Source of the DNA: a virus
Virus record (IMG/VR): IMGVR_UViG_3300008107_000342
Coordinates: 1 to 28,042 of that record
Reading direction: 5' to 3' (one strand)
DNA length: 28,042 bases
Shown: positions 2,792 to 23,388 of the stretch, in pieces
Layout of the letters: each line of letters opens with the position of its first letter
Position numbering within the stretch: the stretch's first letter is position 1
Made by a program: the position numbers and the translations under genes
The notes under the pieces: generated by a model
Seen by the model: the letters and a program-made list of their open reading frames with translations, nothing else
What the model was told of the DNA's origin: nothing
Databases searched by the model: none

Positions 2792-2840
2792 ACAAACAAC
2801 TTGCCCTACCAGTGCCGTGAAAACGGGTTGCTCACTGGTG

Positions 2841-2856
2841 GGGCATCTTTTTGCCC
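2841..2856 (+). promoter_or_regulatory. Hairpin directly before the initiator start codon
   Basis: gggca (2841-2845) and tgccc (2852-2856) form a 5-bp stem around a U-rich loop, ending 2 bases before ATG 2859. It may limit access to the start codon or help define it. It lacks a following T-run, so it is not a clear terminator. If translation began at GTG 2817 it would simply be coding sequence. Confidence 0.35.
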
Positions 2857-2858
2857 AG

Positions 2859-3761: not shown

Positions 3762-3773
3762 CAACATCAATAA

Positions 3774-6701: not shown

Positions 6702-6974
6702 ATGAATGCAATTGAAATCCTCGAGAATGCCGTTGGTCACATGAAGGACCGGGCGGAACAGTACGACGCTCCCGATGGTGAGCGGTCTATCGAAAAGACT
6801 GTCGATATGTTCAATGCGCTGACAGGGCATCGGCTCACTCATGAAGATGGCTGGGTGTTTATGGCATTTCTGAAGATGGTCCGGTCCCGCCAAGGTCAAT
6901 TCAAGGCGGACAACTACGAGGACGGTGCAGCGTATTTTGCGCTCGCCGGGGAAGCGGCATCCCGTGAGACGTAA
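6702..6974 (+). CDS. Conserved phage protein, DUF6378-like (90 aa)
   Basis: The sequence contains MKDRAEQYDAPDGERSIEKT, FNALTGHRLTHEDGWVFM, LKMVRSRQGQF and DNYEDGAAYFALAGEAA. This pattern is widespread in phage genomes and, as I recall it, is annotated as DUF6378. The helical fold with conserved Glu/Asp residues recalls MazG-like all-alpha nucleotide pyrophosphohydrolases, but that link is an inference. It follows the SSB-like gene by 8 bases. The family name is moderately sure; the activity is not. Confidence 0.7.
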   Translation: MNAIEILENAVGHMKDRAEQYDAPDGERSIEKTVDMFNALTGHRLTHEDGWVFMAFLKMVRSRQGQFKADNYEDGAAYFALAGEAASRET

Positions 6975-7360: not shown

Positions 7361-7399
7361 CAAACCCCCAGTCAACCATCTCGGTCGGCTGGGGGTTTG
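7361..7399. terminator. Bidirectional transcription terminator
   Basis: caaacccccag (7361-7371) and ctgggggtttg (7389-7399) form a perfect 11-bp stem with a 17-base loop. It lies between the last rightward gene (stop 7266) and the end of the leftward block (stop 7420). The outer stem supplies a short U-run in both directions (tttg and then cctttgg on +; tttg then ttgctg on -). Position and symmetry make this the natural end of both convergent transcripts. Confidence 0.8.
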
Positions 7400-7419: not shown

Positions 7420-7929
7420 TCAGGCTGTCTTCTTCGGTCTGCCACGCTTCTTCGCTGGAGCAGGAGCCTGCTCTTCCGCGACCGGGACAGGTGCTGGCTG
7501 CACTGGAGCAGGAGGTGGCGGCGAGTACTCCGGTGCCGGGGTGAACGCCGAAGGAATCGCTTCCGGTCTGCCAGTGGTGACCAGCGTGGCTCCAGCCATT
7601 CCATACACCGGATGCGGCGGAAGTTCTTGGACAGGCTCAGGACGCACAGGAACTGGCGCAGGAGCAGGCTGTGGTGGTGGCGGCGTAACCGGAGGCGCAA
7701 TGTACTGAGCGGCGTCAGACGCAGCCTTGGCGGCTTGAAGCATGCGATCCTGGTATGCAGCCAGAGAAACCTGCACTGCCGGAATGATATGGTTCCCCAT
7801 GCTCATGCCGGATACCACTGAGGTCAGCGGGATCTGGTGCTTGGTTCCAACGTACTGCGCCACGGCAGTGATGGTTGCGTTGATGATCGCCATCTCTGGC
7901 GTATCTTTTGTGATGTCGATGGTGGTCAT
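7420..7929 (-). CDS. Pro/Ala-rich protein with C-terminal AT-hook (169 aa)
   Basis: Residues 1-80 form an Ala-rich helical domain (MAIINATITAVAQYVGTK, MLQAAKAASDAAQYI). Residues about 80-155 are a proline/alanine/valine low-complexity linker. The last residues are AKKRGRPKKTA, which contains the core RGRP AT-hook that binds the minor groove of AT-rich DNA. It is the last gene of the leftward operon, 15 bases after the giant gene, so it is probably expressed with the virion genes. It could coat or anchor DNA in the capsid, or travel with the injected proteins. No enzyme motif is seen and the role is inferred. Confidence 0.75.
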   Translation of the reverse strand: MTTIDITKDTPEMAIINATITAVAQYVGTKHQIPLTSVVSGMSMGNHIIPAVQVSLAAYQDRMLQAAKAASDAAQYIAPPVTPPPPQPAPAPVPVRPEPVQELPPHPVYGMAGATLVTTGRPEAIPSAFTPAPEYSPPPPAPVQPAPVPVAEEQAPAPAKKRGRPKKTA

Positions 7930-7944
7930 GAATCCGGACTACAA

Positions 7945-10900
7945 TTACCTGCGGATCGCGTCAAGGTAAGCCTCCAAGCGACCGTCATCATACTTGCGGT
8001 CGAACCTGCGGATCTTCCTCTCAGTGACATCTGATCCACGCCACGGTGGGATGTACTGGTTGGCGATTGCCCGCTCGTCACGTTGATCAAGTTTTACCTC
8101 TTCGCTTCGCATGATTGCAAGAATCTTCTTCTTGGCATCTCGCGGAGTCATGCCGCCAGCCTCCAGAAGGCTTGTTGCCGAGGAGAACATCTGCCCGAGT
8201 TCACGCATGATTTCGGCGTGGCGGGTCATGGCAAGTTTCGTGTCTGCAATCACATCTTCAGGCTCCACGTCATTGGCATCCCGAAGAGCCGACTGGTAGA
8301 GGGATCGGTTCACGATACGCAGGTCATCCTGGGCCTGCCGCATCTGAGCGAGGTACATCTCGTCGATCTTCTGGGTGCGGATGCTCTGACCAGTGAGCAT
8401 CGACAGGAGGACTGCATCCATCTTGTACTTGCTGCCATTCTCCTCGATCCCGTATGCAGCCTTGTACATCTTGATGGCATCACGAACGTCACCAGGATAC
8501 CCGGCAGCATTCATGTAGTACTTGATCCCCTTGGCGATCTTGACGTAGACACTGTCGTCCTTTTCCCAGATTGTCTTGTTCCGGACCCGGTCGAATCCAG
8601 AAAGCGCATTGGATGCAGCCTCGACTGCAATCTGCCTAGATGCGAAGTTACCAATGAAGTCAGACACGATCTGCATCGTAACCTCGACGGCAAGGATGTC
8701 GTCAGCGCTGGCTTTGTCGATTGCCTTTTTGGCAGAGATCACAATTTCATTCGACCATCCAAACGGAAGCTGGAACGAAACGTCAGCCCAGTCGATCTCG
8801 CCATTTGCGTATGCGCGTCCAGCCAGCACCTTATTCTGCGCCCACTCTGGCAGAAGTTTCCGGAGAGAATCAATCTGCGAACTGTCGAGCGTCACGCCTT
8901 CCTTCTCCTCGTCGTCCCCACCACCAACCATCCGCATGACAGCAACTGCGAGGAATTTTGCGACAATAGGGTATCCGATGTGACCAGTCAGTGCAGAGAC
9001 AAGACGCCTTGCGCCCCTGATTTTTTCTTTTTGATTAACTCCATTCTTCATTTCATCCAGCGCAATCCTGTAGGAGTTCATGGCAGTGCGGATGAACTCG
9101 GTTTTCGATGCAAGGAACGGAGAAAGGATCTTGCCCCATCCATTTTTGCGGAATTGATTCACGCCTTCCAGAACCCGAGAGTCAGATTGGATGGTGTCAT
9201 TGATGTTGTTCGCGGCCTTGATCTGAAGCTCCTTCGGGAGGTTCTGGAACATGCCGTTCTCTCCGCGCCACTCATTGAACTGAGCCTTGTCCTTGGCGTG
9301 GATCTTCGCCTGTTCCTCCATCTCACTGAGCCAGAACGTGATTTTTGTCACCGAGTCCATTGAGGAGTAGTACTCGGTACGATTCCCTGCTGTGGACTTG
9401 GCTGTCTGGACCAGGTAGTCCATGGCACCCTGCATGTCATCAGGGCGCATCCACGATGGCAGGAATCGTGCGAGTTTACCTCCAGTGATCGGCCTGCGGG
9501 TGAGTTCGTCCTCGTACCCGAGAAGCCTCGCCATGTCGTTCCGTTCGATGTTGTTGTCAGCGACACCGACATTGACTGCCCTGGTGTACAGATCTTGGAA
9601 CGCCTTGCGGTCGGATTCCTTTTCCGCCCTGCCAGTCACATCGGAAATGGTTCCGATTACACCGGAGACACCACCAAAAACCTTCGACCCAGGACCAGTA
9701 AACGAATAAAGCTGGAGCAGGCCAGAAAGAAGATTTTTGTTCCATTTCCAGAATACTGGATCGCCTTCCGTTCCACCCTTCACTCTCGGCACGGTGGCAA
9801 GGTGTTCAGCAATTGCTCCGGATGCGATGCCAAAGTTGGAAATCACTCTCGCCATTGTGATTGGATTGGCGAGATTCTGACCAGAGTTCATCCCCCACGA
9901 AGGGAATGACGCAAGGTTTCGGACTGCACCACGCATCAAGCCGGATGTCGCATTCCAGAGAGCAGCACCAACCATATATCCAATGGCTTTGAATGCATTG
10001 TTGGAAGGTTGATTGCCGGACCTGCGGATCTCCAGCGAGTTGTAGATGTTTCCGTCAATGTAAATATCAGCCAGTGGATTGTCCTCGTATCCTTCGTCTC
10101 CCTCGATGATGCGCTTGTAGCCTAGGTACTTGTTTGGGTTGCTGTCGTAGTCCTCCTTCTTTACGGCCCAGCCTTCTTCTAGTCCAAGTTTGGCAATATT
10201 TTCACGGAACACTGCATCCGCAATCAGTGATGCCTGTTTCGTGATCGTTTCGGTAACCCTCTGAACTGGTGACTCAGTCTCTCCCCAGAACTTCCGCATG
10301 TACGCCGGAATGTTGTCACGATGCATCAGGATCTCATCGTTCAGCTTCTGCCAGCTATCGGCTACACCCTTGCCGCCGGATCCGCTGACTGGCGCACCGA
10401 GGATGAAGTCCAGGTTCTTCTGGAAGTCCGAGTTGAGCGCTTCAATAAAGCTCTGCTTCTGATTGTTCCCGATGGACGTGCGCCACTTGATTCCAGATGT
10501 GTCCGGCTTGCCAGTTACACGGAGATTCTCGGATGTCTTGTACTGCCACCGGGCAAGATTCAAGGCATCACCCATTGAGATCAGCTTGTACTTCAGCAGC
10601 TTGATCCGGTCGATTGCGGAGTCGGTGATCAGTTTATCAAACGAATCCGGGTCATTGTAGGCATCACGCCCCATCTTCATGGCGGCAGCACGGATCTCTT
10701 TCTTCTTGGCACCAGTAGGAAGACCGAGGAGGGCAGGGTTGCTGACAAGGTAGTTGGCAATCCCACGGATGAACTCCATTCGGTACTGCGCCCGCCTGCG
10801 CTTCACCTCATTCTTTGCCCTGACCAGAATGTACTCGTCGCTCAGGTACAAGTACATGTCCATCTCCTTGTCCTTCCTGTCCTTCTTGTACATGGACTTC

Positions 10901-13900
10901 TCGTCCATGATCCGCATCTCATCACGGAGATCGCTGACCATGTCTGCGTTCTGCTCCGCAATGATGTCCTTTGCCCGCTTCTCAATGATCTTCCCGGTGA
11001 GGACGTTCACCAGCGGAGTGATCCGCTCACGCGCAATCTCACGATACTTCAGCGGTTTGCCGCCAACCATCTCGCCGCCGACCGTGGAGCGGTACGCCTC
11101 GTTGAGGAAGTTCACATAGTCCTCACGGTTCTTCGACTCAAAAGCCTCGTATGCACGGGTGACGTAGATCCCTTCCTGCGCTGAGAACACGATCCGCATC
11201 ATGCCGTCCTTCATCAGGTAGTCGATTCCGGCAATCTCCTTGGACCTGCCGTCGATAGCCGCCCTGGCTTCTTCAATCTCATTGAGGATGGAATCCGGCA
11301 GGAACATCTTGGCGTTCGCCTGAAGCGACAGGAACTTTTCCTTGTTCTCCAGCAGGAACTTGCGGTTCACTTCCTTGTACTTTTCCTCAAAGAGAGCCTT
11401 CAGGGAATCGTTGTACTTGAGCATCTCCTTCTGGAAGATCTCACGATTGTCCTTGAGCTTGTCGAGTTCCGCAGCAGTTCCGCCGGACTTGCGAATCTTC
11501 TCAATCAGGGCAGCGTTATCGCGGAGGTACTGCTCGGTGAGCTTATCGGTCTTCGCCTGAACGGCAGCGATGCCACGCTCGCGGATAGCTTCAAGCTCCT
11601 CCTCCTGCTTCGGAGTCAGCGACGGCATGCTGTTCCCAAGGGCAATGTTCATCAGTTCCTCCGGGGTGGCTACCATGAAGTCGGTGTACCCCATCTTCGC
11701 AGCAAAGGCATCAGCCTCGGCCCGAGACGCATACGGTCTGGTGAACGAAGGCTTTCCGCTGGAATCGGTCGTGAACACCCGGAAGTTCTTGGTGTCCTTC
11801 TCGGTCCTGCCAAAGACCTTCTCGATCTGCTTGCCGAGATTGTTGCCAAGGAAGCGTGCCGCGTTTGCTGCCGCCTTCTTCTCCTGCTCGTTCATGATCG
11901 CCACCTCAAGCCCAGCCTGAGTGAGGTTGCCTCTGGATCTGAACTTCGACGCAATCCATCCTGTCACTGCCATCCATCCGCTGGATGGGACCGCAACGTA
12001 TGTGCCTGGTGCCGGGGTGTAGCCTCGGGCGGTTGAGTAAAGGACAATCGCATCTTCCGGCGCAATGTTCTCGCTGCTGTATGGGGCAACGGCGGCGCGT
12101 TGCTCGGGTGTCAGCGCTTGCCTTGCCTGAACATCACGGGATTCGATTTCGCCTGCTGCACGCTGATACATTTTGAAAGCAGATGTCTTGTCATATTGGT
12201 TTACGGCAGATTTTATCTTGTTGGCTGCATCTACCCGTTCATCCCCCCATAAGGCGCGTGCTTCAGGCGTGTTTGGTATGCGATTGGCTTCTGCAAAAAC
12301 AGCTTTCATGCCAGTTTCGCTGGACCCCCTAGCGAACCCTTCAATCTGCTGAATTGCGTGCTGAATTTCATGTAGAACAGTAGATAGAGAATCCTGTTCA
12401 TTTTTAAAAGCATATATTGGGTTTAGTGAAATTCCATTAAAACTACGATCAAATGCGCCAATGGCAAATGGACTTGCCTCCATGTCGTCTGCATTAAACG
12501 ACACTGGCATAAACCTAAGTTCTGGGTACAGATCAAACAATTGATCATGCTTAAGAATGTAGCTGAGAGGAATTCTTCCTCGGCTTCTATTCTCCTCATT
12601 TAGATAAAACGAATAAACACCAAGATTTTCTTTCTTCTTTTCAGAATCAAACCTACGGCTAAAATCAATCAAGTCTTTGCCTTTAAGATTGTATGCTTTT
12701 TTCAATGCAAGCTCCATTGCGGATTGCTGTTTTGCCTGAAAAAATTCACGGACAATATCCTCCTGTGAGCTTCCGTCCTTTCTTTTCTGTCTGTATTCAG
12801 AAAGCCTAAGTTCCGCTTCATTATCAGGCACCTCCCATCGCATCTTACCGTCGTACTTTCCGGGGAACCATCCGGTCACAGCACGAATCTCCTCGCTTGT
12901 CTTGCCCGCCGCAGCCATTGCCTTTGCTGCATCCAGGGAATCCTGCATGAACACCCTGCGTTCTTCTGGCATATTCTCCAGCGACTTCTCGCCAGCGTAC
13001 ATCCCGAGGACAAACTGATTGTTCATTCCTTCGGCTACGCCTCCGTACATCACTGGAGGATACTCCTCAATAGGACCATCCCTCTGAATGACCGCATTGA
13101 ACGCCTCGTCCGGCATGGTCATCGCATCCAGCGCACGCAGGTACGGATCACCGAGAGCCTGCTTCAGCGTGTCAATGAAGTCCCGGATCAGGCGAGCAAT
13201 CTTGCCAAGGAATGTCGTTGGTCTTTCCTGCTTTCGACGAACCAGATCCGCCCCATTCTCAACAACCCATTCGTCAAGACGGAACAGGCGATAGTTCTCC
13301 TTGTCCCACTTGATTCCGCGAACCCGCTTCCCGTTATCAAGAGTCTCCCATTCCTTCCACGGGATTGAGTCCATCTCCTCTTTGGACAGCATCCTAGAGA
13401 GATCGTCGTACTGATCCTCATTCAAGTGCGTCCTTCCAATGAACGGAACGAACCACGGATTCTTGGCAATGTACTTCTTGACGGCTTTGACGTAATCAAC
13501 GCGCATCTTCTCAATTTCCTCATCGGGAATGAAGCGGGAGAGACCATGCCAGAATTCATGAACAGCAGTCCGGTCAATCTCATTCGGAGAAGAACCGAGA
13601 CCGTTCAGGGCCAAAGTCACAAGGGACTCCGTGAAATCGAATGTGCTGCTCTTCGGCTTCACGGACAACGAGATTCTCGTATCCTCCAGAGCCTTTTCCG
13701 ATACCGAGTTCACGAAGTCGGTGATTGGCTTGATTGCCTCTTTTGGAAGACGCCCGGAATTCCCGGCTGTGATGATCTGCTGGAGGATCGCTCCTTTGCC
13801 TCTGGCGTATGGTGCTTTTCTCCGCTCACTCTCAGCCTTGATCCGTCGTGTGAGTTCGGTGTTTGCGTTGATCGCCTCGTTCAGGGCAACAAATGGAGTG

Positions 13901-16900
13901 GACGCTTCGCCAGCCTTTGCTGCGCGGACAGCATCCACAAGATCAAACCTTCTGACACCATCAGGTGTCACCCCTCTCGCCTCGGACGCTGGAGAGACTA
14001 CTTGAATTGGAAGTGGATTTGGAAGGTTTTCATTTGTTGTTTTGATAAACTGGACACGAACATCAGAAGACGACCCTCCGCGAACTGGTGAAACATCAAA
14101 TCCATCACCAAGAACTTCAGATAAGTAGCTGATAAGTTCCTGCTGGGTGAATCCTTTTTGATATGTCAGAGTCTTTCCTTTTCTTTGAAGCCTTGACATT
14201 CCCCTGAAATCCTGAACTGGTTTTGAATTCAAGACATCAGTTCCTCTTGTTACAATCACAGCCCTACCTCCTTTATTTAGGAGATTTGCTATGTCTTTTA
14301 CAATGAAGTCTCTTGTCTGTGGGTCTACTACGTTAAGAACAAACGTATTGAGTATAGTGTCGTATTTTTTCTCAATCGCATCACCAACTCCAGCGGATCT
14401 ATCTCCTGAGTAAGTTGGCTTAAAGTCGCTCGGAGGAAATGGCTCATACGAATCAGCACCAAGGTCGGCGGACGCCGCGCCTTTACCATCTCCATAAACA
14501 AGCCCATTCTTGAAATCATCATTAGAGATTACTCCCGCTGATTTCAATCTTGAATGGATTGTCGTGCCTATTTGAGTTGCCTCTGGCCTTACGTTAAGTT
14601 CCTCAAAGATTTTTCGATTCATCTTTACTGAGCCATCATCAATCATTAATTGAGCCAACTCAGTATTTCCAGATTTCATTGCTGATATGTAATCAGAATC
14701 AGAAAAGCCGATCCCTCTCGCCTCGGACAGCATGATCCCGGTGGCTCCAAAGGCATCAGCCTTGGTTCCGAGATCCATCGCAAGAGGCTGCATCCCGTTG
14801 TCGGCAGCAAAGCGACTGGCATCCATCAGCGATCTCGCCACGCCAGTACGCACAGAATCACCCATGAGCGCAGGGAACAACAGGTCAGGCTTCTGGATCA
14901 CATCCGCAGCCAGCGGGTTGTCAGCGGCAAACCTCGACGCAAGAGCGGCACGCTGAGTCTGGAGACGAACGTCGTCCCCGTCCATCTCACTGACCGCTTC
15001 CTCGTTGATCACAAGGCCGATGCCATTGTACGCAATCGGATCCTTGACCCCAGGCTCAACGAAGACCTTGAGGTCAGGAGCGTAGAGCGCAAGCTGCTGG
15101 TCAATGATGCCTCTGGATTCGGAGAACCTGATGTCGGGAGATTCAGGGTTGAATCGCTGAGAGAGCGGGATGACGTTTCCTTGATCGTCGCGGGTGACGG
15201 GGTCGGCGGATTTGATTTGGGATGGTTTGAACGCAATAAAAGAATCCCCGTAACCTTCTGCTTCATTGCGATATACAATTCCGTCATATCCTTTCTGGAT
15301 CAAAAGATCACGCAACGCTTGGTTTTCGTCACGCGCATTGAAAACCACTTCATATTCCTCTTCAGAAATCTTAGCTCCGCGTTTGCGAGCCTCACGCATA
15401 ACGCTTTGGTAATTCCAAGTTCCTAAATCAGGCAAACGAAGTGGATTGGAAATATTAACCCAAAATCTAAAAGTTTCACCAAATGATTCAGCTTGCTGCT
15501 CTGTTCCAAGGTGAACGCCTAATTCAATCCCTTCAGATGGCATTGAGAATACATCAAAACCAATAGCTTCTTTTCCGCGCTCACTGGTTCCTTTTGAGGA
15601 TTCGTAAAGTCTTCGTGCTTCTCCGGCATCTTCAACTGTGATTCCATTTTCGGTAGCCATTCCATACTCTACCCATCTTTCAAATATGCTTGCCACAGAC
15701 GACCAATCACTGATGCCATATTTATCAGCGAGATCTTTAAGTTTTTCGCGGGCTGATGCATCTCCTTCAATGGATTTCCCTTCAATATATTTTGTAACTG
15801 TAGTTCCGTGCCAAAGTTCTCTTTGGAACTTAGCCGCCATCGCAGCCTGATCCACCAACCTCTGCGCCTCATCCATATCCCCGCGCTCTACCGCAGAGAG
15901 ATACTCCGCATCCATCTGAGGAGTGACACCTCGGGATTCGGACGCAGGCTTTCCAACCAACTCACCAAACTTCTCACGGTCAATGTTCGGCATCCGCACT
16001 GATCCCTTGTCGGCAGATCCAATGAGGCTGATGATGTCGTTGTATACATCCGTGGCAATGTCGGTCTGCCCGGTGAAGTACTTGGCAATCGAACGGACAA
16101 AGCGATCAAACAGTCCCAGCGGTTTGCCGTCCTTGCCGACTCCGCTCAGAAACTTCTGGAACGCCTTGCTGGTGGTCGCATGGGTTGCGAACTCACTCAG
16201 GCTGGAGAGACCGTAGACCACGTCGAAGAAGTCGTAGTCATTGAGCATTCTCGCCGCATTGACCAGTCCTCGCCAGTTGGTCAGATCCACATCCTTGCCC
16301 AGCTTGGACTTGATCAGATCCGCTGCCGCCTTCCTTGCGGAATCCATCTGCTTCTGAAGCGAATCCACCAATGCTTTCTGCGCCGGGGTGGCCGGATTGC
16401 TGATTGCCCTCTCGGTTCCAGCGTGAACCAGTTCATGCAGCAGCGTCTCGACGATGCCAGTTTCATGCGGTCCATCGAGGTTGAGGTAGACCGTTCCAGT
16501 CGCCGGGTCGAACCATCCGTTCTTGGATGGATCCACCGAGATCATCTGGACGGTCACATCGGTGCCTTGCAGAACCTTGAGTAGATCCTTGGCTACCTTC
16601 CTGTGCCTGCGGTTGCCGGACTTGGAGATCTTCTCCAGAGCGCCGAAGACAGATTCCTGGTTCCCATTGACCAACCCAAGGTCGCTGGCGATCCGGGTAA
16701 CACCTGCTTTGCGTGCTTCGGCTGGGGTGTACGGACGACCCGTGTACGCCGAAACGCTGAGATCGTCAGTGACGTTCGGATTCGGAGATCCGTCCTCTGT
16801 GGTTCCCGGCTTTCTTGAGAGTGACGCAGGGCCGTTTGTGGCAAACGCTTCCGGCGGATGGGTCTCATTGGATACCGCAAGCATGGAGCCAGAGTCTGTC

Positions 16901-19900
16901 TGGAACACAACAACTCCGAGCGGATTGTTCCTTCCTACGCTCTTGAACCAATCGCTGAGTTCCTGGGGCGCTGGCGCAGAGAACTTGAATTTCGCTCCCG
17001 GTTTCGTTTCCTTCCACTTCACCTCAATCGGACCAAAGACCTTCGCTTCCTTCTTCTTGCCAGTCTCAAACTGACTTGCGCCTTCGTCCTCTGGAAGCTC
17101 AAGACCAGTCAGCATCTCAGTGCTGAAGTCTTCGTCAGACATCGGGATTCTGCTCACTGCATCACCGCCAATAGCAGCACCCATGAGTTGCAGCTTCTTG
17201 GAAAGCACCGATGCCCTCGATGTATCCAGCGAGATGTCCGTTGCCGTAATGGTGACGATCCGGTTCGGGGAGTTGTCGTTCTGGATAGTTGAGGATCTCC
17301 AAATTCGACCGTTGCCCTGAACAGCAGAGACCCCACGGTACGGAGCAAACGTGTAGATGATCGTTCGTGGATTGTTCCCGACAGTGTCATCAAGGTTGAT
17401 TCCAGTGCCGCCTGATTCAAGTGATGCAATGATCACCTTGGTCTTTCCAGACTGGAAGTCCTTCTGGACCTGCGATGCCTTCTTCTTTGATTTGCTGTGA
17501 AGTTCAGAGAACTCAATATTGTTCTTCTTGAGTTCATTCTTGAGAAGTTCGACCGGGCTTTCAAGTTGGAATCCAACCATTTGAATGGTCTCTTCTTCGT
17601 ACATTCCTTGTATCTTCTTTGAGATCCTCACATCCATGGGCTTTATCCTGGACGTGAATACCACAACGCTTCTGTTGTTTGACAGTTCGTTTTTCAGCAG
17701 ATCTACCGTTGATCCAATCTTTGTAAGTTCAGCCGCGTAAAGAGCGGCAGAGTCAGGGGCAAGGATTTTCCATCCAGCCATAATGAACGCATCCATTTTA
17801 GCCAATGCGTCCTTGTAGTATGATGACCATGGATTCTCATCAGATGTTCCTTTGACATCCATGAACTGGACAGAGACACCCTCGTAGGAAATCTCACGCT
17901 TAATGAACCCTCCATTATTTCCTGCGCCTACCATCAACTCATTGATCCAAGGGAACAGCTTGTTCTTGCTGTCTGCCTTGCTGTAAACAACCTTGTATTC
18001 TCCAGGTCTCCTCCTGTCACTCACTACTCTTGCCCCCCTATTGATCATCTCACCAAGGAAATCATTCGGAGTAGCAAAACCAAGAACTTTATGGAGATAT
18101 GCAAACTGGTGAACCTTGTCTCCAGGTGTCGCTGTGTAATATGAAATCTTCCTTGCTGACTCAATAATCTTCCGGAACTTTGTGGCCCATTCTTTTCTGA
18201 CAGGATCATTCGGATGTTCCCCGAATGTATTTGCCAATTCATTTGCCTCATCAAATATGACGACAGATCCAGCAGGAATATTTTCTGCTTCAATTCTGTG
18301 ATACGCACCAACGTAGATCTTTCCTTTTTCTGGTTTCTGATCAACAAACAGATTCAATGACACTCCCATGTCGGCAGAATCATTGTCCATTGATCCAGTC
18401 AGTTTTGGCGGATCGCTTTCATACGGCTTGCCGAGCGCATCATTCTTTGAGATGATGAATACGGTATCACCTTTGTCTGCGTAGTATTTTGCCACAGCAA
18501 TGATCTGCCGTGTTTTGCCGACACCAGTCCCGTCACCATTGAGCGCAGCACCGATGCTCTCCATGGAGTTGATGACTGCGTTCGCGCCATCAATCTGCAT
18601 CTGGTACATCTTGGACTTGATCGCAGGATCGACATAGTCCGGGATGTCTTTGTTCACAGGGACGACATCAATCACCTGATCTCGGGCAAGCCTGCGGGTC
18701 TTCTTCTCAACCGCTTTACCTTGGACTGGTGGTGCTTTTACTTCCGGCTCAACCGCCGCCTTCGGCTCTTCGACTGGTGCTTCTGCCTTCGGAGCAGGAG
18801 AAGGAGTTTCTTCCTTCGGAGCGGCAGGCGCGGCTACAGGTTCAGTAGCAGCTTCAACCGGAGAGGCGGGTGCCTCCGCTGGTTTGGTTCGCGCCCTTCT
18901 TTCAGCAATGACTGCCCTGCGGTCGATGATCGCCCACCCGCCTTGCGTTGGATCTCCGATGACATCTCCGTATCGTTTGATTTCAATGAATTTCCCGCCT
19001 CTCGGATCAGACATCTGGCGGGATTCCCTTTCTGTTCTGAGGGAGTTCCTTCTTGATGCAGTCATCAAGCTATCAGGAATGAACGTGATGTCTTCCGTGC
19101 GCTGCTCTGTTCCTTTCAGTTTAGTCAATGCGAGTGCCTTCTTTTCAACGGCAGTCAGTTCTTCATCACCTACTGGTTGGATGTTTGGCTTCTGTTCTGC
19201 TTCTGTTGGTTTGGTTTCCACGGTCGCTTCAACCGGAGCTTCCACGGAAGGCTCATCTGTTGCTTTTACGGCAGCAACTTCTTTCTCTCCTTTGAAAACA
19301 TACAGGTCACCTTCTTTGACATATCCTTTTTCTTCAATGCTGTCGATCAATTGCTTCCTTGCAGATCGCACAACGCCACCTGGTTCTCCCATTGGACCGG
19401 GAGAAATTGTCCGGTCTACATCACTCAGAGAGTCAATCAATCCGGCAAATATTGGTCGCTTTTGATTTGCTGCCTCAATGACAGTTCCGAAAACGTCAGG
19501 GTCTTGATCTTCCGATGTTGCTTTTTGTAAAGCATCTTCTCTTGCCCTTACTAGCGCCGCTTTGCTTTTGAATCCAAACGCATACGGATTATCTGTTCCG
19601 TCTTTTGCTTTTGAAAGATCATCTTTAGCTGTTTTTATTGCCTCAGATTTTCTGAATGCCGAAAGTTCATCTTTCGTCATCTGTTCCGGCTTCGTCGCAT
19701 CGCGGGTGGCTGGCTTCGCTTCCACGGCAGGCTCTTCGACTGCGGTCGAAGCAGCAGGTTCCGCAGCGGGAGCAGCTTCAACTGGCGGTTGAGCGGTAGC
19801 GGGAGCAGCTTCAACCGGAACCGGAGGAGCAGTGTTCGCTGCCTGCTGGAGCGCGGCACCAGTGATTGATGCGCCGGGAACCTGCGATACGACAGCAGCA

Positions 19901-22900
19901 ACTGACGCTGCGTTTACTGCGGCGGGGTTTGTCCGTTGGGCCGTGACTGGGCTTGCGGCTGTGGCTTGCCTTGTTTCCGAAGGTACGCCAATGTCGCGAG
20001 GAACGAGTCCGTTCTGCCAAGAGTCGCGGGACTCGATGAAGAGGGAGAGGATATTGAGGTCTCCCTCAAGTTTGGCTGTGATTTTTTGTTTGAGGTCATC
20101 TGAGATTCCCGTCTGAGTTTTGGTGGTTTCAATTGCCTGAGTGATCTGCTCTTCGGCAAGGAGGATCTGTTCGTCCGTGATTCCCCTCGCCATGCGTGCG
20201 AACTCCGGTGTGTTCTGCACCCTGATGGTTTTGCGTCCCTTACGTTGCAGCAGTGAGACACCGAGTTCAGCCATATCGACAACGGAATCAGTGTCTGTCG
20301 TGATGCCGCCGAAGATAATCTGCAATGCTTCACCTTCCGTTTCGCCGTACATGCGAAGCACTTCTGCTCTGTCCTGCGCTGCATCTCCGGTGACTGTAAT
20401 GCCGAGGGCATTCACTGCCTCGTCAGCAAGGAACGTGGCTGGAATGTCAATGACCGTTCCATCCGGTGTCTGCAAGGCGGGTCTGCCTTCGTCATCAATC
20501 AGCGTGCCTTCGTAGCCTTCGTACTGAATCTGCATGCCGACAGCTTCACTGAGCAGCGGATTCGGTGGAGGTGGAGGAAGCGGAAGTTCTTCAGGAGGCG
20601 CAACGCCATTCTGTTCTGCCTCTGCCAATTGCTTTTGCCGAGCAGCATTACGGATGTCATTCGGCGTGACGGTGTTGTTTGCCCCGGACGGAGTGACGGT
20701 CGTGATGTCCACTCCAAACTGGGATGCGAGACGAGTGGCAAGCCTTGTTGCGCCAAGAGGTTGAGCCGAGACAACGGTCGTTGATGCGGCAGTGGATGCC
20801 GTCGTCGTTCCAGTTGGCGAGACTACCGTTGCGGCACCAGCCGGGGGTGGCACTGGGCTTGGCGGAACGGCAGCAGCACCGGGGGCGGTAGGCGCAGGTG
20901 GAATTGGACCAGCAGCGGGAGGTGCGGCAGCGGGAGCAACTGGTGGCGGCGGCGTTGCAGGTGCAGGTGCAGGTGCAGGTGCAGGTGCAGGTGCAGGTGC
21001 AGGTGCAGGTGCAGGTGCAGGTGCAGCGGGTGGAGTAGGTGGCGCACCAGCGAGTCCAGCCATCTCCGCTTCGATCTGCGCGGCAGTGAGACCCCCGGCA
21101 GTCTGCCTGATCTGCCCACCGACAGCAGCACCACCACCGACAATGAATCCAAGTGCGCCAGCGTAGAGCGATTCCTGGATGATGTCCGAAACCTTTTTGT
21201 CCTGCGCCTCTGCTGACGGGTTGGTGAGGTACTGGGAAATTCCGCCGATGAACTGATCGAGACCTTCTTCCAATCCTTCCGATCCAGCCTTTCCGAGAAT
21301 TCCCTTCGCAGTCTTGATGACTGCCTGCTTGCCGTATTCAGACCTGAGTACATCAGGAAGTCCGGCAGCAACCAAGTCACGGACAGTGAATTCCCCGTCC
21401 TTGCGCTGGCTCATCGTGCCGATGTCTTCGGCACCACCAGCACCAGCGGCAGAGAATCCGTATGTGATCAACCCAGTGATGGCACCGGAGATTGCGGCAG
21501 CATTCCTTGCTGCATCCAGCGCTTTTGCTGGAGCCATGCCTTCATTCCGAAGCTGGCTGTACACCTCTGGGAATGTTCCTCCCATGCTGCTCATCCCGGC
21601 AGTGGCGGCAGAGACTGCCTGCTGAAGACCAAGTCCTCCCTTGAGAGGATTCTTCGACGACATCTGCTTCGCCGTGGCGATTGCTGCGTCAGCAAGATCA
21701 TCCACAGAGCCAGCGGCGATACTGGGGATCCTTGAAACCGCAGCCCTGACGGCACCTCGTTCGGCGTTTGCCATGGCGGCACTGATTGCTCCACGGGCAG
21801 CAGCGTATGAAACCCCGGTCCTGGCTGCAAGAGATCCGGCAGCAGCAGAAGCACCGATACCTCCAGTAGCCATTGAGATCGCAATCTGAGCGACGAGATC
21901 CGGCAGGACGGCAGCAACGTCACGGGTCAGCTTGATGGTGGTTGGCGCACCCATCCTGCTACCAACCATCTCAGCGGCCTGGGCCTTTTCGTTCTCGGCT
22001 TTCTGGACTGCGGCAGCACGTTCAGCAGCTTCAACGTCGCCAAACATTGCAGGCACGACGTTCGCAAGATTCACCAGCCTGGTCAGTCCGGTTCCGATCC
22101 CACCGATGCCCTGGCTGAAGAACTCACCGATGTCATTGTACCACGCCTGATCCCTCTTGTCCTTGTAGTACCTGGACACAGCAGCGACCTTCGCCTGAGG
22201 ATCCTTTGCGTCCTTGGCATACGGAGCAAAGTCGTCCCGGTTGCGGAGGAGGAGATCAAATGTCGGTGCCGCAATGGATTCAGCGATCTGCGTTCTGGTT
22301 TCCTTGGCGAGAGCCTTTGCTTCGTCCGGAGCCTTCGCTTTGTCCACGACGGCATCGTAAGCCTCCTTGTCGAAGGCAAGATCCGCATTCGGCACGAAGA
22401 CCTTCGGCTTTACGTCAGGATCAAGAACCCTGACTTTGGAGTTGAGAACAGGGACGTAGTCCTCCAGCGAGTCAGCATTGGTCACCCAGCGGGAAATGGA
22501 TGTCGGTGCGCTTCGCTTGAGCGCTTCAAGGTAGTCGGTCTGAATCTCTTCGTCCGTCAGTCCGTACTTCTTCTGGAACTCGTTGAGTTCCGGCATCGGT
22601 TTGTACTGGGCATTGGCAGCAGGGAGAACCTTGGTGGCAATTCCACCGACAATGGATTCATCCCAGTTCACATAATCAGGATCAACGACAGACCATGTGC
22701 CTGACTTGTCCTTGACGATAGCCGGGGACTGAGGAGTGCCGACATCAAAGCCGAGGATCTCGTTTCCTTCCTGGATCGCAGAGACAACCTTGTCGGCAAC
22801 CTTCGGAGTGATGACCCTTGATGCAAGTTCATTGCGTCTGGTGACGACAGACTTCTTGTCCTCCTCGTCACGCTTCCCGGCATAGATCAGCTTGATGTCA

Positions 22901-23388
22901 TCAGGAGCATCCGATTCTGCAAGTGCTTTGCGATAAGCGGCAGGATCCTTGGTGACCTTCGGATTGAAGACGATCTGACCACCTACGAAGGCAGCGCCAC
23001 GGTTTCCGTCGATGACATCCTTGTACGCCTTCTCGTCAGGAGCTTTCGCGGCAAGCCTCTGCTGCTCGCTGCTGATGATGTTGACGTAGTTGTCGTAGTC
23101 AGCATTGACTTCCTCGGGAGTCGGATCGGCACCAATCTCGGAAGAGAGGCGGCGACGGGTCTGGAGTTCCTTGAGTTTGAACTTCTGGAAGGACTCCGGG
23201 TTGTCGAATCCTCCAGCCTGAAGCTGATAGTTCTGAGTGTCCTTGACCCACTTGTCGAAGATCGGCATCCGCTGCTCAGGTGGAAGCGAGTAGATCAGGC
23301 TTTCCTGTTCAATCTCGCTCCACTTCTTGGGAGCCTGCGGCTGTGTCTGTGGTTGGGAAGGAAGACCAGTTCCATCAATCGATTCCAT
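7945..23388 (-). CDS. Giant polyvalent virion-type protein (5147 aa)
   Basis: One uninterrupted frame encodes about 560 kDa. By residue: 1-420 hydrophilic N-terminal region; 425-760 four Ala/Gly-rich hydrophobic segments; 790-815 Ala-Pro repeat; 878-914 E3-binding-like domain; 915-1595 small unknown domains between Pro/Ala/Glu linkers; 1595-2060 SF2 helicase; 2240-2420 HELVH peptidase; 2491-2755 ADP-ribosyltransferase-like; 2955-3120 methyltransferase-like; 3215-3400 HEFWH peptidase; 3495-3790 LPD23-like with HEIQH; 3927-4020 coiled coil; 4460-4830 hydrophobic C-terminal segments. This mix matches phage polyvalent proteins, thought to enter with the DNA and disarm host defence. It follows two internal-virion-type genes, much as T7 gp16 follows gp14-gp15. 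The leader has no clear Shine-Dalgarno sequence. Whether it is cleaved after synthesis is unknown. Confidence 0.92.
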   Translation of the reverse strand: MESIDGTGLPSQPQTQPQAPKKWSEIEQESLIYSLPPEQRMPIFDKWVKDTQNYQLQAGGFDNPESFQKFKLKELQTRRRLSSEIGADPTPEEVNADYDNYVNIISSEQQRLAAKAPDEKAYKDVIDGNRGAAFVGGQIVFNPKVTKDPAAYRKALAESDAPDDIKLIYAGKRDEEDKKSVVTRRNELASRVITPKVADKVVSAIQEGNEILGFDVGTPQSPAIVKDKSGTWSVVDPDYVNWDESIVGGIATKVLPAANAQYKPMPELNEFQKKYGLTDEEIQTDYLEALKRSAPTSISRWVTNADSLEDYVPVLNSKVRVLDPDVKPKVFVPNADLAFDKEAYDAVVDKAKAPDEAKALAKETRTQIAESIAAPTFDLLLRNRDDFAPYAKDAKDPQAKVAAVSRYYKDKRDQAWYNDIGEFFSQGIGGIGTGLTRLVNLANVVPAMFGDVEAAERAAAVQKAENEKAQAAEMVGSRMGAPTTIKLTRDVAAVLPDLVAQIAISMATGGIGASAAAGSLAARTGVSYAAARGAISAAMANAERGAVRAAVSRIPSIAAGSVDDLADAAIATAKQMSSKNPLKGGLGLQQAVSAATAGMSSMGGTFPEVYSQLRNEGMAPAKALDAARNAAAISGAITGLITYGFSAAGAGGAEDIGTMSQRKDGEFTVRDLVAAGLPDVLRSEYGKQAVIKTAKGILGKAGSEGLEEGLDQFIGGISQYLTNPSAEAQDKKVSDIIQESLYAGALGFIVGGGAAVGGQIRQTAGGLTAAQIEAEMAGLAGAPPTPPAAPAPAPAPAPAPAPAPAPAPAPATPPPPVAPAAAPPAAGPIPPAPTAPGAAAVPPSPVPPPAGAATVVSPTGTTTASTAASTTVVSAQPLGATRLATRLASQFGVDITTVTPSGANNTVTPNDIRNAARQKQLAEAEQNGVAPPEELPLPPPPPNPLLSEAVGMQIQYEGYEGTLIDDEGRPALQTPDGTVIDIPATFLADEAVNALGITVTGDAAQDRAEVLRMYGETEGEALQIIFGGITTDTDSVVDMAELGVSLLQRKGRKTIRVQNTPEFARMARGITDEQILLAEEQITQAIETTKTQTGISDDLKQKITAKLEGDLNILSLFIESRDSWQNGLVPRDIGVPSETRQATAASPVTAQRTNPAAVNAASVAAVVSQVPGASITGAALQQAANTAPPVPVEAAPATAQPPVEAAPAAEPAASTAVEEPAVEAKPATRDATKPEQMTKDELSAFRKSEAIKTAKDDLSKAKDGTDNPYAFGFKSKAALVRAREDALQKATSEDQDPDVFGTVIEAANQKRPIFAGLIDSLSDVDRTISPGPMGEPGGVVRSARKQLIDSIEEKGYVKEGDLYVFKGEKEVAAVKATDEPSVEAPVEATVETKPTEAEQKPNIQPVGDEELTAVEKKALALTKLKGTEQRTEDITFIPDSLMTASRRNSLRTERESRQMSDPRGGKFIEIKRYGDVIGDPTQGGWAIIDRRAVIAERRARTKPAEAPASPVEAATEPVAAPAAPKEETPSPAPKAEAPVEEPKAAVEPEVKAPPVQGKAVEKKTRRLARDQVIDVVPVNKDIPDYVDPAIKSKMYQMQIDGANAVINSMESIGAALNGDGTGVGKTRQIIAVAKYYADKGDTVFIISKNDALGKPYESDPPKLTGSMDNDSADMGVSLNLFVDQKPEKGKIYVGAYHRIEAENIPAGSVVIFDEANELANTFGEHPNDPVRKEWATKFRKIIESARKISYYTATPGDKVHQFAYLHKVLGFATPNDFLGEMINRGARVVSDRRRPGEYKVVYSKADSKNKLFPWINELMVGAGNNGGFIKREISYEGVSVQFMDVKGTSDENPWSSYYKDALAKMDAFIMAGWKILAPDSAALYAAELTKIGSTVDLLKNELSNNRSVVVFTSRIKPMDVRISKKIQGMYEEETIQMVGFQLESPVELLKNELKKNNIEFSELHSKSKKKASQVQKDFQSGKTKVIIASLESGGTGINLDDTVGNNPRTIIYTFAPYRGVSAVQGNGRIWRSSTIQNDNSPNRIVTITATDISLDTSRASVLSKKLQLMGAAIGGDAVSRIPMSDEDFSTEMLTGLELPEDEGASQFETGKKKEAKVFGPIEVKWKETKPGAKFKFSAPAPQELSDWFKSVGRNNPLGVVVFQTDSGSMLAVSNETHPPEAFATNGPASLSRKPGTTEDGSPNPNVTDDLSVSAYTGRPYTPAEARKAGVTRIASDLGLVNGNQESVFGALEKISKSGNRRHRKVAKDLLKVLQGTDVTVQMISVDPSKNGWFDPATGTVYLNLDGPHETGIVETLLHELVHAGTERAISNPATPAQKALVDSLQKQMDSARKAAADLIKSKLGKDVDLTNWRGLVNAARMLNDYDFFDVVYGLSSLSEFATHATTSKAFQKFLSGVGKDGKPLGLFDRFVRSIAKYFTGQTDIATDVYNDIISLIGSADKGSVRMPNIDREKFGELVGKPASESRGVTPQMDAEYLSAVERGDMDEAQRLVDQAAMAAKFQRELWHGTTVTKYIEGKSIEGDASAREKLKDLADKYGISDWSSVASIFERWVEYGMATENGITVEDAGEARRLYESSKGTSERGKEAIGFDVFSMPSEGIELGVHLGTEQQAESFGETFRFWVNISNPLRLPDLGTWNYQSVMREARKRGAKISEEEYEVVFNARDENQALRDLLIQKGYDGIVYRNEAEGYGDSFIAFKPSQIKSADPVTRDDQGNVIPLSQRFNPESPDIRFSESRGIIDQQLALYAPDLKVFVEPGVKDPIAYNGIGLVINEEAVSEMDGDDVRLQTQRAALASRFAADNPLAADVIQKPDLLFPALMGDSVRTGVARSLMDASRFAADNGMQPLAMDLGTKADAFGATGIMLSEARGIGFSDSDYISAMKSGNTELAQLMIDDGSVKMNRKIFEELNVRPEATQIGTTIHSRLKSAGVISNDDFKNGLVYGDGKGAASADLGADSYEPFPPSDFKPTYSGDRSAGVGDAIEKKYDTILNTFVLNVVDPQTRDFIVKDIANLLNKGGRAVIVTRGTDVLNSKPVQDFRGMSRLQRKGKTLTYQKGFTQQELISYLSEVLGDGFDVSPVRGGSSSDVRVQFIKTTNENLPNPLPIQVVSPASEARGVTPDGVRRFDLVDAVRAAKAGEASTPFVALNEAINANTELTRRIKAESERRKAPYARGKGAILQQIITAGNSGRLPKEAIKPITDFVNSVSEKALEDTRISLSVKPKSSTFDFTESLVTLALNGLGSSPNEIDRTAVHEFWHGLSRFIPDEEIEKMRVDYVKAVKKYIAKNPWFVPFIGRTHLNEDQYDDLSRMLSKEEMDSIPWKEWETLDNGKRVRGIKWDKENYRLFRLDEWVVENGADLVRRKQERPTTFLGKIARLIRDFIDTLKQALGDPYLRALDAMTMPDEAFNAVIQRDGPIEEYPPVMYGGVAEGMNNQFVLGMYAGEKSLENMPEERRVFMQDSLDAAKAMAAAGKTSEEIRAVTGWFPGKYDGKMRWEVPDNEAELRLSEYRQKRKDGSSQEDIVREFFQAKQQSAMELALKKAYNLKGKDLIDFSRRFDSEKKKENLGVYSFYLNEENRSRGRIPLSYILKHDQLFDLYPELRFMPVSFNADDMEASPFAIGAFDRSFNGISLNPIYAFKNEQDSLSTVLHEIQHAIQQIEGFARGSSETGMKAVFAEANRIPNTPEARALWGDERVDAANKIKSAVNQYDKTSAFKMYQRAAGEIESRDVQARQALTPEQRAAVAPYSSENIAPEDAIVLYSTARGYTPAPGTYVAVPSSGWMAVTGWIASKFRSRGNLTQAGLEVAIMNEQEKKAAANAARFLGNNLGKQIEKVFGRTEKDTKNFRVFTTDSSGKPSFTRPYASRAEADAFAAKMGYTDFMVATPEELMNIALGNSMPSLTPKQEEELEAIRERGIAAVQAKTDKLTEQYLRDNAALIEKIRKSGGTAAELDKLKDNREIFQKEMLKYNDSLKALFEEKYKEVNRKFLLENKEKFLSLQANAKMFLPDSILNEIEEARAAIDGRSKEIAGIDYLMKDGMMRIVFSAQEGIYVTRAYEAFESKNREDYVNFLNEAYRSTVGGEMVGGKPLKYREIARERITPLVNVLTGKIIEKRAKDIIAEQNADMVSDLRDEMRIMDEKSMYKKDRKDKEMDMYLYLSDEYILVRAKNEVKRRRAQYRMEFIRGIANYLVSNPALLGLPTGAKKKEIRAAAMKMGRDAYNDPDSFDKLITDSAIDRIKLLKYKLISMGDALNLARWQYKTSENLRVTGKPDTSGIKWRTSIGNNQKQSFIEALNSDFQKNLDFILGAPVSGSGGKGVADSWQKLNDEILMHRDNIPAYMRKFWGETESPVQRVTETITKQASLIADAVFRENIAKLGLEEGWAVKKEDYDSNPNKYLGYKRIIEGDEGYEDNPLADIYIDGNIYNSLEIRRSGNQPSNNAFKAIGYMVGAALWNATSGLMRGAVRNLASFPSWGMNSGQNLANPITMARVISNFGIASGAIAEHLATVPRVKGGTEGDPVFWKWNKNLLSGLLQLYSFTGPGSKVFGGVSGVIGTISDVTGRAEKESDRKAFQDLYTRAVNVGVADNNIERNDMARLLGYEDELTRRPITGGKLARFLPSWMRPDDMQGAMDYLVQTAKSTAGNRTEYYSSMDSVTKITFWLSEMEEQAKIHAKDKAQFNEWRGENGMFQNLPKELQIKAANNINDTIQSDSRVLEGVNQFRKNGWGKILSPFLASKTEFIRTAMNSYRIALDEMKNGVNQKEKIRGARRLVSALTGHIGYPIVAKFLAVAVMRMVGGGDDEEKEGVTLDSSQIDSLRKLLPEWAQNKVLAGRAYANGEIDWADVSFQLPFGWSNEIVISAKKAIDKASADDILAVEVTMQIVSDFIGNFASRQIAVEAASNALSGFDRVRNKTIWEKDDSVYVKIAKGIKYYMNAAGYPGDVRDAIKMYKAAYGIEENGSKYKMDAVLLSMLTGQSIRTQKIDEMYLAQMRQAQDDLRIVNRSLYQSALRDANDVEPEDVIADTKLAMTRHAEIMRELGQMFSSATSLLEAGGMTPRDAKKKILAIMRSEEVKLDQRDERAIANQYIPPWRGSDVTERKIRRFDRKYDDGRLEAYLDAIRR
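8899..10011 (-). other. Giant protein: C-terminal membrane-interacting region
   Basis: Residues 4460-4830 include hydrophobic stretches IGYMVGAALWNATSGLMRGA and IGYPIVAKFLAVAVMRMVGG, separated by helical segments such as LSPFLASKTEFIRTAM. The pattern resembles the LPD38-like C-terminal part of other polyvalent proteins and could form or line a channel during DNA entry. The domain name is tentative. Confidence 0.5.
11329..11610 (-). other. Giant protein: long coiled coil
   Basis: Residues 3927-4020 are almost entirely charged and helical (QEEELEAIRERGIAAVQAKT, LRDNAALIEKIRK, NREIFQKEMLKYNDSLKALF) with heptad-like spacing of Leu and Ile. This probably separates the enzymatic region from the C-terminal part, or mediates oligomerisation in the virion. 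Confidence 0.6.
12019..12906 (-). other. Giant protein: LPD23-like domain with HEIQH peptidase motif
   Basis: Residues 3495-3790 contain TGWFPGKYDGKMRWEVPD, LKHDQLFDLYPELRFMPV, then VLHEIQHAIQQIEGFARG (HEIQH 3673-3677) and GEIESRDVQARQALTPEQRA. This order matches the large polyvalent-protein-associated domain I know as LPD23, which has a zincin-like motif. A conserved closing strand (AIVLYSTARG) ends the module. Parts of it are AT-rich. Confidence 0.72.
13189..13746 (-). other. Giant protein: HEFWH metallopeptidase domain
   Basis: Residues 3215-3400 include TAVHEFWHGLSRFIPDEEIE with HEFWH at 3277-3281. Near residue 3371, LDEWVVENGADLVRRK could supply the distal glutamate ligand of a gluzincin. 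A zinc peptidase is likely. Its target could be the giant protein itself or a host protein. Confidence 0.65.
14029..14526 (-). other. Giant protein: SAM-dependent methyltransferase-like domain
   Basis: Residues 2955-3120 carry VYGDGKGAASADLGADSYEP (motif I and the acidic loop after it), then KKYDTILNTFVLNVVDPQTR (motif IV region) and IANLLNKGGRAVIVTRG (motifs V-VI). This is a class I Rossmann methyltransferase pattern similar to those linked with phosphorothioation clusters and polyvalent proteins. There is no NPPY/DPPY motif, so it is probably not an adenine-N6 enzyme. Motif I is somewhat degenerate. The DNA is AT-richer than its flanks. Confidence 0.68.
15124..15918 (-). other. Giant protein: ADP-ribosyltransferase-like module (ART-PolyVal)
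   Basis: Residues 2491-2755 begin with a helical adapter (AEYLSAVERGDMDEAQRLVD), then LWHGTT (2524), FGETFRFWVNISNPLRLPDL, a GYDGIVYRNE segment, SFIAFKPSQIKSADP and NPESPDIRFSESRG. The WHGT opening, NPL-LPDLG and FKPSQIKSA elements are hallmarks of the ADP-ribosyltransferase domain of polyvalent proteins. It probably modifies a host target using NAD. Confidence 0.78.
16129..16671 (-). other. Giant protein: HELVH metallopeptidase domain
   Basis: Around residues 2240-2420 the sequence GWFDPATGTVYLNLDGPHET precedes TLLHELVHAGTERAIS, with HELVH at 2318-2322. A downstream LSSLSEFATHATTSKAF could provide the third zinc ligand. This resembles zincin-fold peptidases found in phage polyvalent proteins. 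Confidence 0.68.
17209..18606 (-). other. Giant protein: SF2 helicase (Strawberry-notch/DarB-like)
   Basis: Residues 1595-2060 contain all core SF2 elements: a Q-motif-like MYQMQIDGANAVINSM, Walker A GDGTGVGKT (about 1618), Walker B IFDEANEL (about 1711), SYYTATPGD (about 1750), ASLESGGTGINLDD (motif V) and VQGNGRIWRSST (motif VI). DEAN replaces the usual DEAH, as in Strawberry-notch-type helicases and antirestriction proteins such as P1 DarB. It probably translocates on entering DNA and counters restriction. Confidence 0.85.
20647..20757 (-). other. Giant protein: E3-binding (peripheral subunit-binding)-like domain
   Basis: Residues 878-914 read ATRLATRLASQFGVDITTV, TPSGANNTVTPNDIRNAA. This follows the 35-residue peripheral subunit-binding domain of 2-oxoacid dehydrogenase E2 (R-x-x-A-x-x-x-G-V-D-x-x-x-V-x-x-(S/T)-G-x-x-x-x-(V/I)-x-x-x-D-(V/I)). 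It is preceded by an Ala-Pro linker, as in E2 enzymes. Confidence 0.7.
20957..21026 (-). repeat. Hexanucleotide microsatellite (gcaggt)n encoding Ala-Pro
   Basis: The + strand reads gcaggt repeated without interruption for 70 bases (11 full units plus gcag). In the giant gene this encodes about 11 Pro-Ala pairs, a stiff extended linker. Hexamer units keep the frame, so replication slippage would alter linker length without breaking the protein. Confidence 0.95.
21110..22130 (-). other. Giant protein: N-terminal hydrophobic segments
   Basis: Residues about 425-760 include GIGGIGTGLTRLVNLANVV, DLVAQIAISMATGGIGASAA, AAISGAITGLITYGFSAAGA and YAGALGFIVGGGAAVGGQI. These Gly/Ala-rich amphipathic or transmembrane stretches resemble the membrane-inserting parts of ejected virion proteins. 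They could form a conduit through the host envelope. Confidence 0.55.

Follow-up and report, generated by a model that had tools for sequence, protein, structure and literature searches.

Polyvalent proteins, a class known since 2017 (PMC5512222), are single chains encoded by phages or conjugative elements that carry zincin-like peptidase, ADP-ribosyltransferase (ART), helicase and LPD domains, with strawberry-notch-like ATPases in a few members. Another giant chain, the virion RNA polymerase of phage N4, has a conserved HExxH motif in its C1 domain and is expelled along with two more ejection proteins (preprint PMC12633501); statements on these papers, and on PMC5694885 below, refer to the parts of each that were covered. 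The DNA described here is a virus contig of 28,042 bases from IMG/VR (record IMGVR_UViG_3300008107_000342, taken at full length and called the window), in which one 15.4-kb gene encodes a protein of 5147 amino acids (aa). This giant protein is a polyvalent protein, as the sequence-only reading of the same DNA had claimed: helicase, ART and LPD23 domains, all above curated Pfam cut-offs, stand as disparate domains in one chain, and the repertoire, zincin-like domains included, is that of the class. That the protein is phage-encoded is indicated by the IMG/VR virus record, by the DnaB, SSB and RuvC-like genes of the window and by virion-structural matches in a relative of the window phage, contig G002 (contig L002, 72,271 bases).

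The preferred reading, given a probability of about three in four, is that the giant protein is packaged in the virion, ejected into the host, and built of a near-fixed backbone and exchangeable enzyme cassettes. The backbone would consist of the N-terminal 780 residues, the three zincin-like domains and the C-terminal region, and the contents of the helicase, ART and methyltransferase slots would be swapped or dropped by recombination. Both ART-type and methyltransferase cassettes would start with a common leader and ART-type cassettes would end with a common trailer, while a peptide typical of the phage, here SE[SA]RG, would mark the cassette seams. After ejection the enzymes would act on host molecules.

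The frame on the minus strand runs from ATG to stop without an internal stop (562 kDa), and its G002 counterpart of 4907 aa is also uninterrupted, so that the single leftward frame of the sequence-only reading stands. The ratio of nonsynonymous to synonymous divergence (dN/dS) between the two was determined for 13 segments and lay at 0.04–0.18 in ten of them, the exceptions being two replaced segments (0.447 and 0.459) and a 52-codon linker (0.331). Because of the low values in the ten segments, the 15.4-kb frame is regarded as real and under purifying selection. Contig L001, near-identical to the window, lacks short stretches inside the giant frame, at least one of them frame-breaking (13785-13876, 92 bases); these gaps may be due to assembly error or decay.

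Comparison with G002 disclosed an exchange of cargo within one gene, the backbone being near-constant, at mostly 90–99% identity. Identity was 98.6% over residues 1-779 and 90.3% over residues 3135-5147, with 20.6% over residues 1887-2075 in the helicase region. The replacement in G002 is again a helicase, with a longer N-terminal part, ResIII over its cut-off (9.3e-8) and AAA_34 below it (9.2e-6). The ART core was replaced with conservation of the cassette ends, and a short stretch after the HEIQH motif (residues 3707-3745) also differs. Synonymous divergence was 0.14–0.42 in ten backbone segments and 0.34 in the 52-codon linker; since the helicase segment reached 0.69 and the ART segment 0.65, these had been replaced and had not simply drifted fast. 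G002 lacks the methyltransferase cassette and about 100 linker residues near 1396-1500. The methyltransferase edges in the window carry a 16-bp direct repeat; a single near-copy in G002 combines the left flank of the first copy with the right flank of the second.

The domains were assigned by scanning ten overlapping slices of the giant protein against Pfam, with its cut-offs, and PHROGs. One helicase module was found by AAA_34 (1.5e-8), Helicase_C_4 (1.1e-7), Helicase_C and ResIII, all over cut-off, as was LPD23 (1.3e-12), and ART-PolyVal (3.2e-7) scored 31.6 bits against a cut-off of 31.2. AAA_30 had no match in the window, and Helicase_C_4 had none anywhere in three relatives, which is uninformative. 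Megablast of the helicase region in phages gave no match, NCBIfam matches were far below cut-off, and PADLOC gave weak matches, all within the helicase region. Of the three HExxH motifs, copies 1 and 3 are accompanied by a relative or a profile, while copy 2 (HEFWH at 3277) is a motif alone. Residues 2257-2454, spanning HELVH at 2318, matched phrog_2206, which is named virion RNA polymerase (7.2e-10), and the DUF6782 metallopeptidase profile around copies 1 and 3 gave 0.021 and 0.033, far under cut-off. Thus the helicase, the ART and two of the three peptidases of the sequence-only reading were supported by the profile searches. The count of at least seven recognisable modules made there was too high for curated profiles, which only the helicase, ART and LPD23 pass, and the peptidases and the methyltransferase are recognised from motifs or homologues.

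Residues 2888-3134 are likely a methyltransferase, judged from homology and, in part, from a model. Pfam matches of this cassette were sub-cut-off (best 0.012 and 0.028) and the Protein Data Bank (PDB) sequence search gave no match, and the assignment made earlier is made likely by homology, not by a curated profile: the cassette is 40.6% identical to a stretch of gp36 of Roseobacter phage CRP-3, which overlaps a Methyltransf_23 match (1e-3) that is itself below cut-off. The structural model had a mean predicted local distance difference test (pLDDT) score of 51.4, and the 50 Foldseek matches listed were mostly methyltransferases, none at 0.001. A weak match to phrog_10089, a DarB-like antirestriction family, covers the helicase C-terminal part (8.7e-4). 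The adenine-methylase motif, (D/N/S)PP(Y/F/W), was not seen by eye in the 247-residue cassette, in which the window protein is unlike DarB-like proteins and the adenine methylase-helicase dyad. Across the regions of the giant protein searched, PDB sequence matches were absent or weak (best E 0.98 and 0.11) and were not believed; for residues 1-780 there were only two PDB rows (E 0.98–0.99, likewise not believed), and tblastn of this region in phages gave no match. At 20653-21048 (-) the Pro/Ala linker, which holds a TGCAGG array, leads into the E3_binding match just below cut-off, an order known from dehydrogenase E2 chains.

The borders of the cassettes were recognised in the giant protein of ctsTn925 (MW202426). 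At a BLAST threshold of 1e-3 this protein shares with the window the zincin-3 region and two short matches, one of 62% over 29 residues before the ART and one of 69% over 26 residues at the ART end, with no match in the enzyme between them. Scans with a three-sequence alignment (A2) took in the best 80 of 335 viral-contig relatives (79 loci) and 25 relatives in genomes (24 loci), and iterated leader and trailer profiles were applied at a threshold of 12 bits. There were 113 leaders and 117 trailers, which formed 110 ordered pairs and left 3 leaders and 7 trailers unpaired, redundant contigs included; as leader patterns had served to choose the loci, which tblastn of the cassette then confirmed, this pairing count is biased, whereas the flanks were unselected. 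Fifteen loci were excluded from the cassette set as overlapping, duplicate or fragments of close relatives. Removal of redundancy at 85% identity left 82 pairs, of which 80 had usable flanks; taking one per contig gave 71, the window, G002 and other related pairs among them. The giant frame had both stops inside the locus in 46 of the 71, of which that of the window was the longest (median 3148, stop to stop); comparable sizes are those of 8P_023 (5145 aa) and of a frame in L121 whose trailer is unpaired (5287 codons from stop to stop). HExxH occurs in 48 of the 71 giant frames, against 1.8 expected by composition.

The 82 non-redundant payloads fell into one similarity cluster of 74, another of five and three singles. 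Ten were scanned, and ART-PolyVal was over cut-off in three (L100, L060, L104), below it in two (L120, 4.2e-5; L031, 0.023) and absent from five. The three scanned members of the five-member cluster (L012, L117, L118) had no Pfam match, nor did the single payloads L056 and L115, the third single being L120. The leader is not confined to ARTs. The methyltransferase cassettes of the window, L080 and L089 start in a leader-like way at 11.4, 10.4 and 11.0 bits (E 0.023–0.046 over 1328 open reading frames); four leader-profile matches fall between 6 and 12 bits, and these three are the methyltransferase starts. In L080 (7278-7964) and L089 (7275-7961), which are near-identical to each other, the cassette has 59.7% identity to that of the window, and beyond it the giant protein has matches to the window in two places only, around zincin 1 and around the ART cassette. 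In both contigs the methyltransferase comes before the ART, in the window after it. As methyltransferase cassettes also start with it, the leader appears, on this sequence evidence, to be part of a cassette system and not peculiar to the ART. No description of leader or trailer adapters or of junction peptides in polyvalent proteins was found in the parts of the open literature covered, supplements excepted; they do not figure in the covered parts of PMC5512222, where the word linker is absent.

The flank before the leader resembles the flank after the trailer of the same protein. Over the 71 contigs own pairs scored 23.28 and cross pairs 15.73, the best of 10,000 permutations reaching 18.14. 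With the trailer end removed the values were 16.45 and 13.32 (permutation maximum 15.04), and when the window, G002 and tandem cases were left out (67 contigs) they were 16.13 and 13.32 (maximum 14.96); none of the 10,000 permutations reached the observed excess of own over cross likeness. The flanks hold short junction peptides; in the window this is SE[SA]RG, four copies of which border the ART cassette and the methyltransferase cassette. With at most one mismatch allowed, junction 5-mers had 64 extra copies in their own protein (16.4 expected), and 36 of the 71 proteins had at least one (13.7 expected). Hand-written junction patterns were surveyed in 19 chosen loci, in stop-to-stop frames of at least 200 residues in the fetched flanks (at least 90 in G002), and were confined to the giant frames; a single SEARG is further present in the second gene upstream of the giant one, in G002 as well as in the 397-aa counterpart in the window.

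Tentatively, these peptides may be protease sites, the polyprotein being cut at a short phage-specific motif, whether prior to packaging, inside the head or within the host, so that the enzymes are freed. Besides the repetition within the own protein, it is the peptide rather than the DNA that appears to be kept, because, in 16 proteins selected for their visible repeats, 95 of 203 comparisons at identical residues showed different codons. Phe or Tyr occupies position -1 in 18 of 63 own extra copies (one of the 64, at the first residue of its frame, has no such position); for the matches in other proteins the figure is 102 of 1177 (Fisher 1e-5). When the L061 protein is cut at its LPAK copies, the successive pieces match L5_gp82-like (1.8e-6), GNAT (7.9e-9), nothing, ART-PolyVal (5.7e-14) and Kinase-PolyVal (7.5e-22), and in L063 a PBECR5 match (2.5e-29) starts at residue 7 of a junction-cut piece. 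There are also precedents: head proteins of SPN3US are processed at A-X-E and related phages use other motifs (PMC5694885), and Iyer et al. predicted processing by zincins and noted that of P1 DdrB (PMC5512222). Against cleavage, the N4 virion RNA polymerase is packaged unprocessed (PMC5512222), and the complete L039 protein has five LPA[KG] copies and no HExxH. Moreover, 8 of the 18 Phe/Tyr cases come from L039 and L061, which have the motif in common, and the -1 residues in the window are A, F, L and A.

It is more doubtful that the peptides are recombination seams, i.e. short repeats used for gain and loss of cassettes and without function in the protein. The 16-bp repeat that flanks the methyltransferase, with its near-copy exactly at the seam in G002, would fit this explanation, but codons that often differ between copies are not those of recent DNA repeats, and the enrichment of Phe/Tyr at -1 would not be expected. 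Docking or spacer linkers between beads of a chain threaded during ejection without cleavage are an unlikely explanation: a proposal for the N4 virion RNA polymerase has it threaded, like beads on a string, through a ~35 Å channel (PMC12633501), yet a mere spacer need not repeat its residues within a protein and vary between phages.

On sequence grounds the window protein is most likely carried in the virion and ejected into the host, as had been claimed; the support comes from homologues. It may also counter host defence and act before any phage gene is expressed, as the sequence-only reading proposed, both roles being hypothetical. Residues 3595-3794 recur in gp60 (3787 aa) of H66, a Pseudomonas phage of the F116 group, which is noted as 'verified by mass spectrometry as part of the virion' and which, as in the window protein, joins LPD23 and methyltransferase matches and HExxH motifs, here two, in one chain. 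The zincin-3 region is also found in the 5145-aa 'structural protein' 8P_023 of phage 8P (F116 group). Only ~200-300 residues are in common with H66 and 8P, and SE[SA]RG was not found in H66 gp60. Residues 4353-4607 are shared, at 25-26% identity, with phi18:3 gp123, annotated from experimental tandem mass spectrometry proteomics, and phi19:3 gp129, which are unlike the window protein in size (1935 and 1871 aa). The resemblance to the N4 enzyme lies in the giant chain and the HExxH motif; zincin 1 is tied to an N4-type enzyme by the name of phrog_2206, a family to which N4's own protein may belong, and unlike N4 the window protein gave no RNA polymerase domain match in the ten slices, phrog_2206 covering the zincin region only. 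The two profile-less genes preceding the giant gene would parallel the two N4 ejection proteins, by analogy, and the 344-aa gene is a candidate ejection protein. The internal-virion type assigned to them previously is a matter of position and composition, neither gene having a Pfam or PHROG match. The membrane-active ends proposed for the giant protein proved weak, only two 19-residue stretches exceeding a Kyte-Doolittle value of 1.4 (1.56 at 491-509; 1.46 at 4799-4818). It is very improbable that the giant protein is instead made early in infection and not carried by the virion: its virion location is indeed deduced from relatives, but these are annotated as virion-detected, and the G002 giant gene follows same-strand genes with virion-structural PHROG matches.

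Several points weigh against a packaged protein with backbone and cassettes. The virion location of the window protein is drawn from relatives only, and those with mass spectrometry annotation share 200-255 residues each, the rest of the chain being extrapolated. G002 is a single comparison, other close contigs being fragments. Relatives of residues 1-780 beyond near-identical contigs are weak (0.006 to L077/L079), and both structural models are of low confidence, with a mean pLDDT of 49.0 for the C-terminal region and 51.4 for the methyltransferase. The own flank ranked first in 11 of the 71 contigs and among the top five in 33, falling to 4 and 19 with the trailer end removed, so that the flank signal is carried by a subset of contigs. 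In the window protein itself, exact 5-mer repeats at a spacing of 100-400 within residues 1561-5147 numbered 3, where shuffles gave 0.9 on average and 5 at most; as this maximum exceeds 3, the repeat is not significant by the generic test. The four SE[SA]RG copies compare with 0.016 per shuffle (maximum 1 in 2000), a post hoc figure.

Iyer et al. predicted that giant phage proteins are split into functional pieces by the peptidases they contain, and in the covered parts of PMC5512222 no cut sites are named with the prediction; the junction peptides are concrete, phage-specific candidates for such sites. It is conceivable, at less than even odds, that polyvalent proteins are punctuated polyproteins, with a junction peptide of each phage's own, a matching protease and interchangeable leader/trailer cassettes, whose swaps would leave the delivery backbone intact. 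Leader and trailer also offer a handle for new effector domains, whatever sits between or behind them being a candidate.

Table 1 Features of the giant gene and of the genes upstream of it in the window. Residues refer to the giant protein.
Feature	Position	Strand	Residues	Remarks
Polyvalent protein gene, 5147 aa	7945..23388	-		ATG start, uninterrupted frame, G002 counterpart, dN/dS
Upstream gene, 344 aa	23436..24470	-		no Pfam or PHROG match; candidate ejection protein
Upstream gene, 397 aa	24482..25675	-		no Pfam or PHROG match; one SEARG near its residue 150
N-terminal region	21049..23388	-	1-780	most conserved part versus G002 (dN/dS 0.037 over 1-779)
Pro/Ala-rich linker	20749..21048	-	781-880	TGCAGG hexamer array; shorter in G002
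E3_binding match	20653..20739	-	884-912	22.1 bits, just under Pfam cut-off 23.7
Helicase module, strawberry-notch type	16819..18708	-	~1561-2190	Pfam; other helicase in G002
Zincin-like peptidase 1	15943..16821	-	2190-2482	HELVH at 2318; phrog_2206 match
Junction peptide SESRG, copy 1	15928..15942	-	2483	
Cassette leader DAEYLSAVERGDMDEAQRLVDQAAMAAKF	15826..15912	-	2493-2521	conserved before ART
ADP-ribosyltransferase (ART-PolyVal)	15190..15825	-		Pfam; core replaced in G002
Cassette trailer DDQGNVIPLSQRFNPESPDIRF	15124..15189	-	2734-2755	conserved at ART end
Junction peptide SESRG, copy 2	15109..15123	-	2756	
Domain X	14728..15108	-	2761-2887	no Pfam match; 98.5% identical in G002
Junction peptide SEARG, copy 3	14713..14727	-	2888	
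Methyltransferase-like cassette	13987..14727	-	2888-3134	leader-like start; missing from G002 exactly at the SEARG repeat
Junction peptide SEARG, copy 4	13972..13986	-	3135	
Candidate zincin-like peptidase 2	12949..13971	-		HEFWH at 3277; motif alone, no Pfam match
LPD23	12808..12945	-	3482-3527	Pfam
Zincin-like peptidase 3	12007..12606	-	3595-3794	HEIQH at 3673; common to H66 gp60 (also 8P and ctsTn925)
Shared region	9568..10332	-	4353-4607	common to Cellulophaga phi19:3 gp129 and phi18:3 gp123
C-terminal region	8242..9234	-	4719-5049	parts common to contigs L060, L046, L035

To the right of the giant gene, five same-strand frames gave no matches to Pfam (threshold 0.01) or PHROGs (0.1), and a sixth matched a PHROG weakly. 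In G002 two virion-structural PHROG matches (75-878 and 1539-2750) precede the giant gene on its own strand, and the far end has a tail-spike match and a further virion-structural match. Tblastn searches meant to place the phage, with a 797-aa G002 protein and with 532 of the 616 residues of another protein, gave no match and one weak match, respectively. A 169-aa frame with only a weak PHROG match (7420-7929, minus strand) adjoins the giant gene, to the left of which lie replication genes, mostly on the opposite strand, for an endonuclease, an exonuclease VIII-like protein, a RuvC-like resolvase, DnaB and SSB. A terminator-like hairpin is present at 7379-7394, where the two gene blocks converge; two terminator-like sites occur in 1.1 kb against 0.8 in shuffles, which could be chance. 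The 90-aa frame at 6702-6974 (+) matched part of the profile of phrog_474, 'phosphofructokinase', at 7.7e-25, a family name that may be wrong. Last, a 12-bp tandem array at 3197-3269 (+), within the 2817-3761 frame, encodes a repeated EGVL tract.

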